A DNA stretch of 31,579 bases, from positions 1-31,579 of IMG/VR virus record IMGVR_UViG_3300022539_000471; one strand, 5' to 3'. The translations under genes and the position numbers were made by a program. Below, piece by piece: positions 1,505 to 2,103 of this stretch. The DNA is from a virus. Numbering within the stretch: the stretch's first letter is position 1; each line of letters begins with the position of its first letter. The notes below the pieces were generated by a model, which saw only the letters and a list, made by a program, of their open reading frames with translations, did no database searches and was not told the DNA's origin.

Positions 1505-1532
1505 ATTATATACTAATTTTTCAAGTTGTCAA
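1505..1532 (-). promoter_or_regulatory. Strong sigma70-like promoter, leftward
   Basis: On the minus strand TTGACA (1532-1527) and TATAAT (1510-1505) are perfect consensus boxes separated by 16 bases. It matches the rightward promoter at 2022-2049 in the bases AGGGGTTGACAA, so the pair forms divergent early promoters. One TACTAAT repeat (1511-1517) lies in the spacer, so a protein binding these repeats could repress it. Confidence 0.88.
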
Positions 1533-1555
1533 CCCCTAGCATACAAACGAGATAC

Positions 1556-1964
1556 TACTAATTAGTAGATTAGTATGGATTAGTAAGGGGTCAAATAGAT
1601 TATAAGCTAATGCTGTAGAGTGATTACGTCATAATTAGTAAATTAGTAGGTTGGTCGGGGTAGGAGGAGGGGGAATTTTTTGAAAAAAAGGGTGGGGAAA
1701 AATACTAACTTTTTATTTTTAAGGTATAATGTATATTTTTTTATATATAATATATATATATATATATATATAATATATATATATAGGTATATATTTGTCA
1801 TTAGAGCCCTGTTTAGCTTATAATACGCTTCCCTGGCTCTTTTAGTTTTTGAACAGCTTTTTTCTCTCTCTCCGACCCCCTCAATCTACTAATTTACTAA
1901 TTATCACCGAAACGCTTGCCAGCACTAGGCTATAGGCTTTTCAGCCCTTACTAATCTTACTAAT
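1556..1964. other. Candidate replication origin: inverted iterons around AT-rich core
   Basis: The left arm carries ATTAGTA at 1561, 1569, 1579, 1634 and 1642. The right arm carries its complement TACTAAT at 1887, 1895, 1949 and 1958. A 19-base stretch, ATAATTAGTAAATTAGTAG (1631-1649), is repeated exactly in inverted orientation at 1886-1904. G-rich DNA (1655-1697) flanks the centre on the left and C-rich DNA (1865-1881) on the right. In the centre is an AT/TA tract. TACTAATTAGTA (1556-1567) is a perfect palindrome. Iterons beside an easily melted tract are typical of initiator-dependent origins; use as an origin here is inferred. The gap 1411-2219 holds no credible gene. Confidence 0.6.
1711..1796. 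repeat. AT-rich tract with (TA)n, possible DNA unwinding element
   Basis: Nearly pure A/T over about 85 bases, including a long alternating TA run from about 1741 to 1784. It sits at the centre of the inverted iteron arms. Such tracts melt easily; the run length is also the kind of site where assembly errors occur. Confidence 0.7.
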
Positions 1965-2021
1965 TGAATCCCGTATCCCTTGCCAGGAGCGGGTTATAGA
2001 ATTAGTGGTCTTTTTTAGGGG

Positions 2022-2049
2022 TTGACAAAGCTAATTTTTCGTCTATAAT
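2022..2049 (+). promoter_or_regulatory. Strong sigma70-like promoter, rightward early
   Basis: TTGACA (2022-2027) and TATAAT (2044-2049), both perfect, are spaced by 16 bases. Transcription would start near 2056, giving a leader of about 165 bases before the first gene at 2220, with the palindrome at 2086-2103 and the 22-base repeat copy B inside it. Confidence 0.88.
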
Positions 2050-2075
2050 ATAGACATATAAAGAGTTTACGTTCA

Positions 2076-2103
2076 TTGACAAATTGCTATATTAAAATAT
2101 AGC
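2076..2103 (+). promoter_or_regulatory. Second rightward promoter with overlapping palindrome
   Basis: TTGACA (2076-2081) is followed after 16 bases by TATAGC (2098-2103). GCTATATT (2086-2093), AA, AATATAGC (2096-2103) form a perfect palindrome with 8-base arms that covers the -10 box, as operators often do. A weaker inverted pair TATAGT (2113-2118) / ACTATA (2125-2130) follows. The promoter is a weaker match than 2022-2049. Confidence 0.6.

Follow-up and report, generated by a model that had tools for sequence, protein, structure and literature searches.

A mirror-symmetric, origin-like element between divergent gene blocks of a phage genome fragment and its relatives

Results

A mirror element lies in the gap between divergent gene blocks

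The sequence analyzed here, referred to as the window, is the entire 31,579-bp IMG/VR virus record IMGVR_UViG_3300022539_000471, which is a fragment of the genome of an uncultured phage. Positions 1505-2050 of the window hold two diverged inverted halves arranged around an A/T core, each half running from a promoter through iterons to a strand-biased tract. This mirror element sits wholly in an 809-bp gap (1411-2219) without any open reading frame (ORF) of at least 60 amino acids (aa), between a leftward block of terminase and structural genes and a rightward replication module; the two blocks converge again at about 19.46 kb. We describe the element and its recurrence in related phages, and we propose that it is probably the origin of replication. 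Its parts in the window are the following.

1532..1505, minus strand: left outward promoter, TTGACA-16-TATAAT, 12/12 consensus, with the AGGGGTTGACAA box at 1526-1537 (-)
1561..1585, plus strand: left outer iterons, ATTAGTA at 1561, 1569 and 1579
1631..1649, plus strand: left inner iteron pair (ATTAGTA at 1634 and 1642), forming the left arm of the 19-nt inverted repeat
1650..1708, plus strand: G-rich, purine-biased tract adjoining the core
1728..1795, no strand: A/T core with (TA)n, a candidate DNA unwinding element
1861..1883, plus strand: C/T-rich tract, a weaker mirror of the left G-rich tract, with which it aligns
1886..1904, minus strand: right inner iteron pair (TACTAAT at 1887 and 1895), forming the right arm of the 19-nt inverted repeat
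1939..1966, minus strand: right outer iterons, TACTAAT at 1949 and 1958
2022..2049, plus strand: right outward promoter, TTGACA-16-TATAAT, 12/12 consensus, with the AGGGGTTGACAA box at 2017-2028 (+)

Much of this layout had been proposed in an initial annotation of the locus, and we recovered the five left and four right inverted ATTAGTA-type iterons, the exact 19-base inverted repeat, and the outward promoters sharing one sequence on both sides. The nine ATTAGTA/TACTAAT copies form two clusters, at which initiator binding is only predicted, and two further TACTAAT copies outside the earlier list are present on the left side, at 1511 and 1556. Exactly 236 bases separate the two arms of the inverted repeat (ATAATTAGTAAATTAGTAG, 1631-1649 versus 1886-1904), and positions 1578-1595 are complementary to 1939-1956 at 89%. 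The A/T content reaches 88% over 120 bp, as expected of an unwinding region, and the longest A/T-only run in the window (54 nt, 1732-1785) lies inside the core. A G/C strand-biased tract had been annotated on each side of the core; both are present, but they are unequal. The left tract is pronounced and directly adjoins the core (the 85 bp to the left have a GC skew of 0.83), whereas the right one (~1861-1883) is short and set off from it, which explains why the skew is -0.04 in the 85 bp to the right.

Both promoters are perfect matches to the sigma-70 consensus, and an equally good best score was found in 1.3% of random 391-bp stretches. The left promoter leads through three small ORFs and past a terminator-like site (595-564) to the terminase and structural genes. 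We also used the promoter string as a search pattern in IMG/VR, which returned nine contigs with neither protein similarity to the window nor iteron arrays, and these were set aside. A separate repeat, AGCTCTCAGGGGA, occurs on both flanks of the element (window 172-238 and 2155-2195), with GCAAAGAC/GTCTTTGC inverted nearby; its right-flank copy is part of the leader of the rightward transcript, a segment predicted to form a terminator-like hairpin at 2160-2179. A second contig, L015, comes from the same virus (99.84% identity across window 1-13304) and is the same as the window at 599 of 599 bases of the origin-like stretch. It extends 1.7 kb past the left end of the window, reaching TerS and TerL.

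The symmetry exceeds that of shuffled sequence

Comparison of the window with its own reverse complement gave a match over 1569-1964 with an E value of 3.6e-17. With the core removed, the arms aligned at a score of 343, compared to 130.8 +/- 17.0 for 500 dinucleotide shuffles (maximum, 199; z=12.5). The promoter-to-core alignment of the two halves covers about 230 bp and takes in the sequence between the iterons (for example, 1594-1653 matches 1882-1941 over 60 nt at 75%), and therefore the element resembles an entire half (promoter, iterons, and tract) that was duplicated in inverted orientation and has since diverged. We further scanned for points around which many 9-mers, excluding those of A/T only, recur inverted with arms 30 to 500 bp apart. 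The top shared centre in the window was at 1781 with 53 bases, while the second best reached 20 and the maximum in 60 shuffles of the window was 30. The same scan gave 19 for lambda, 19 for T7, 29 for Lactococcus phage c2 at a centre (15091) away from its putative origin, and 29 for LUZ24, a score that its own shuffles attain.

The layout recurs at the same map position in relatives

A nucleotide search of phages with the window sequence gave no match, and a query with the single PolA protein retrieved no relatives. Searches with the PolA and DUF3987 proteins found the same gene order in Mel-JY34, LS06, vir526, ctLwi270, ctMlz233, Kuura, Tiera, ABTNL-3, and PaP2, with the uracil-DNA glycosylase (UDG)-PolA fusion serving as the marker for relatives. 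The DUF3987 alignment was too divergent for scanning, and the PolA alignment was used to recruit 40 long IMG/VR contigs, 39 of which also match DUF3987. Among the 34 relatives with an identified TerL, the most symmetric point of the genome fell no more than 5 kb upstream of TerL in 20 (3.96 expected, p=6e-11), and this held for 18 of the 22 relatives scoring at least 27. Points at this position fall within the gap that separates the late from the early block, or next to it. In 20/34 relatives the longest A/T-only run of the whole genome is located there too, typically no more than 100 bp away from the symmetric point, and since A/T runs are ignored by the symmetry scan, this is an independent measure. 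Each time the sequences of relatives were inspected, they showed a core made of an A-tract or (TA)n with inverted arms on either side.

Some individual genomes need comment. The top centre of LS06, at 38, is an end duplication of the record and was discarded, and the A/T core of this phage at 43242 is flanked by inverted arms. The centre in PaP2 lies inside the annotated gene gp01 and was judged unconvincing, and the symmetry scan showed no mirror element in ABTNL-3. In vir526 (L018; 401-1000), inverted iterons alternate around two A/T cores (~610 and 917) in a manner that resembles overlapping mirror origins.

The shape is kept while the repeat sequence changes

The initial annotation had proposed conservation of the arms in related phages as a check; the architecture was kept in most relatives examined but the sequence was not. 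The repeat unit differs by genome, being ATTAGTA in the window, GGGCAGTT in Kuura, TGCATTTTT in vir526, AACGAACA in Tiera, GGAAATGG in ctMlz233, and ACCACCTACT in G027. The arms are alike within one genome and unlike those of other genomes. Given that the mirror arrangement is preserved and its letters are not, both arms must change together.

In two relatives, the arms are built from DnaA boxes. G003, whose PolA is joint most similar to that of the window (45%), has five boxes in one orientation on the left (3516-3579) and six in the opposite orientation on the right (3747-3820), and 9 of its 14 strict DnaA boxes lie no more than 300 bp from the centre. For G034 the corresponding figure is 7 of 8 strict boxes, in both arms. 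One DnaA box each is present at the centre in ctLwi270 and vir526; the record of the latter gives an archaeal host. Across relatives, promoter-like outward sites show a modest enrichment (Fisher p=0.002 on the right and 0.003 on the left), with scores of 12 and 11 in G004, 12 and 11 in G015, 11 and 10 in G033, and 12 on one side in Tiera. Twin promoters are thus common among relatives, yet less constant than the arms and core. Mirrored strand-biased tracts around the core were significant in only 11 of 29 genomes.

Gene setting

Judged from its genes alone, the window fits the UDG-PolA/DUF3987 podophage group (PaP2, PaMx41, Tiera, and Mel-JY34), with a UDG-PolA fusion, DUF3987, converging rightward replication and leftward structural blocks, and TerS-TerL beside the divergence. 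The rightward replication module encodes a PD-(D/E)XK nuclease and Sak4-like, SSB-like, ParB-methylase, UDG-PolA, and DUF3987 proteins. The genes and sites used above are the following.

595-564: terminator-like site after the three small leftward ORFs
617..1410, minus strand: three small ORFs downstream of the left promoter (1219-1410, 953-1219, and 617-913), without a match in Pfam and PHROG searches
2220..2597, plus strand: opening ORFs of the rightward early/replication block, 62 and 61 aa long
14403..16682, plus strand: uracil-DNA glycosylase/family A DNA polymerase fusion (Pfam UDG, DNA_pol_A_exo1, and DNA_pol_A)
18055..19254, plus strand: DUF3987 protein, PHROG 'DNA primase', a possible helicase/primase (Pfam/PHROG)

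Several other features of these genomes were recorded. At window 12441-13670, a ParB N-terminal domain is joined to an N4/N6 DNA methylase, and methylases or ParB-like proteins are also annotated in the replication block of several relatives. The early block holds tRNA-Thr (TGT) at 11104-11177 and tRNA-Asp (GTC) at 13936-14011. A 469-aa protein of the structural block (26519-27928) is rich in QLG(M/A)GA/QAALQAQQ repeats and is encoded in the most GC-rich part of the window. The annotated TerL of ctLwi270 (L019; 32887-34542) has an insertion with intein-like motifs in the alignment, ending VVSGYLSRNC. In G027, the DUF3987 gene (C1, 4490-5701) reads through two in-frame TGA codons, possibly reflecting a recoded genome or a frameshift.

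Discussion

We propose, with a probability of roughly two in three, that the mirror region is the replication origin of this phage and consists of two mirror half-origins placed inside the divergent early/late control region. A replication start is the probable function because the layout recurs in distantly related phages and is built from DnaA boxes in two of them. Clustered DnaA boxes next to an A/T tract are the accepted mark of a replication origin, and the DnaA-box arms of G003 and G034 are therefore the best evidence for this reading. The suggestion in the initial annotation that the region forms one control and replication centre is likewise supported by the conserved architecture and the DnaA-box arms, as far as sequence can tell.

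We infer the following course of initiation. An initiator would bind the iteron pairs on both sides of the core; in the window genome it would be phage encoded, while in G003 and similar relatives host DnaA would probably take this role. Binding would melt the A/T core between the pairs, and given that the binding arrays are inverted, one helicase could be loaded for each direction. Forks would then depart in opposite directions, each codirectional with the outward transcript on its side, until they met near 19.4 kb, at the point of convergence of the gene blocks. Initiator binding to lambda and plasmid iterons opens an adjoining A/T region, and transcription nearby can help (PMC5043065). By analogy with lambda, the twin promoters may couple transcription, and perhaps also upstream negative supercoiling, to opening of the origin (PMC5043065).

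Several observations weigh against an origin at this site. The DnaA box TTWTNCACA is absent anywhere in the window, so the oriC-type signature is lacking there and the ATTAGTA repeats should be sites for another initiator. No recognizable initiator was found near the element, where the flanking small ORFs lack Pfam or PHROG matches, and the early proteins scanned yielded no initiator family. In several relatives the symmetry score is no higher than in shuffles, and the top centre lies elsewhere in G009, G030, and G023. GC skew had been put forward as a check, and the cumulative skew of the window does have its minimum at the element (1548), with its maximum at the convergence of the gene blocks (19478). 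However, skew tracks gene direction, and its sign is reversed in Mel-JY34, Kuura, G014, G025, and G034, the opposite sign occurring in GC-rich relatives. We place little weight on skew because gene direction changes at the same points and the sign flips in relatives.

The main rival explanation, which we consider unlikely, is that the element is a packaging terminus, that is, a site where terminase cuts concatemers and where terminal repeats are made, with the inverted repeats acting as terminase sites or as a fold-back for duplicating the terminal repeat. It is the main rival because the mapped terminal repeat of Kuura starts about 50-60 bp from the core of that phage. PhageTerm assigned Kuura a 606-bp direct terminal repeat (PMC9959647). 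Its copies in the record (L022) are at 43208-43813 and 1-606, and the start at 43208, so close to the A-tract core, counts against an origin in that it would equally fit packaging; the right iterons fall inside the repeat. The right iterons of Kuura lie in a tandemly duplicated unit of about 70-80 bp, and the right arm of Tiera shows a similar duplication. The element is 0.7-4.7 kb upstream of TerL in most relatives, and LUZ24, with a similar layout, has a 184-bp terminal repeat in the equivalent divergent gap; the symmetry of LUZ24 is, however, not stronger than that of its shuffles, and its repeat is on the early side of the gap, whereas the Kuura repeat is on the TerS side of the core. A contig end lies no more than 34 bp from the core in three IMG/VR contigs out of 22 (G026, G018, and G037), far above chance, but such ends may be assembly breaks at homopolymers, and the window and L015 both run through the site without a DNA end. 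No part in packaging is known for DnaA boxes, the repeat unit of G003 and G034. The element could be a terminus, or origin and terminus both, but the DnaA boxes together with the differing side of the repeat in Kuura and LUZ24 favour an origin that has a terminus close by.

We also regard as improbable a role in transcription control alone, in which the iterons would be operators for a shared activator or repressor of both promoters, the A/T core would be a bendable spacer, and replication would start elsewhere. Two perfect sigma-70 promoters with a common upstream GGGG box and iterons upstream of both would suit such a role, as would the moderate enrichment of outward promoters across relatives. 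That enrichment is nevertheless modest and is lacking in many relatives, whereas symmetric arms with an A/T core are common, and the DnaA-box arrays of G003 and G034 suit an origin better. A mobile-element remnant or telomere-resolution site, with the arms as terminal inverted repeats or a TelN-type site, is very improbable despite the length of the inverted arms and the palindromic (TA)n core between them, given that no telomere resolvase (PF16684) was found in 17 genomes searched, including the incomplete window record, that the window has no ORF between the arms, and that insertions would not be expected to produce one layout from unrelated sequences, at a constant place on the map, in genome after genome.

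The proposed origin can be compared with several known systems. In common with what we propose for the window, ori-lambda has initiator-binding repeats (for the O protein) beside an A/T-rich melting region, of 40 bp in lambda, with transcription near the origin (PMC5043065). The lambda iterons, annotated at 39034-39118, are confined to one flank of the A/T region, within gene O, whereas the window has two arrays that point at each other from the two flanks of the core, in a control region between genes, and lambda has no long-range symmetric centre in our scan. Origins of the oriC type share clustered DnaA boxes beside an A/T core with G003 and G034, but not with the window. The boxes of oriC form a one-sided array, and G003 instead has an array on either side of its core, the two being inverted relative to each other. 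For phage c2, the annotation places a putative origin in a gap of 611 bp that separates divergent early and late blocks, which resembles the setting of our element, but it lacks mirror arms. In the herpes simplex oriS and the SV40 control region, initiator sites are inverted around an A/T core, and, as proposed for the window, an A/T-rich origin lies between divergent transcription units. We draw this parallel as an analogy only; these are eukaryotic viruses with other initiators, and homology is not claimed. The location of oriS is between icp4 and us1 or us12 (PMC10541914). In RepA_N iterons of PLE and staphylococcal plasmids, inverted sub-repeats converge on a poly-A tract (PMC7145576), but the symmetry there is inside one iteron of tens of bases, compared to about 500 bp including promoters here.

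A bolder possibility, which we offer tentatively and consider doubtful, is that the element represents a distinct class of viral origin, in which concerted evolution keeps the halves, including their promoters, mirror-symmetric while the sequence turns over completely and the initiator is exchanged, with phage iterons in some lineages and host DnaA in others, and which also sets the genome terminus. If this were true, one element would serve replication, divergent transcription, and packaging.

In summary, the novel part of our findings is a mirror arrangement conserved in shape and not in sequence. We did not find this architecture described for this phage group in the open-access literature, most subscription papers being outside the search. 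Phage origins are usually reached through sequence similarity to known ones or through experiment; here, an origin-like element is predictable from mirror shape alone across a large, mostly uncultured phage group. The cultured members Kuura, Tiera, Mel-JY34, and PaP2 make three questions directly testable, namely, whether inverted initiator arrays are required for bidirectional firing, by what means two separated arms remain similar as each diverges from those of all relatives, and whether a single element acts as origin, divergent control region, and packaging terminus.
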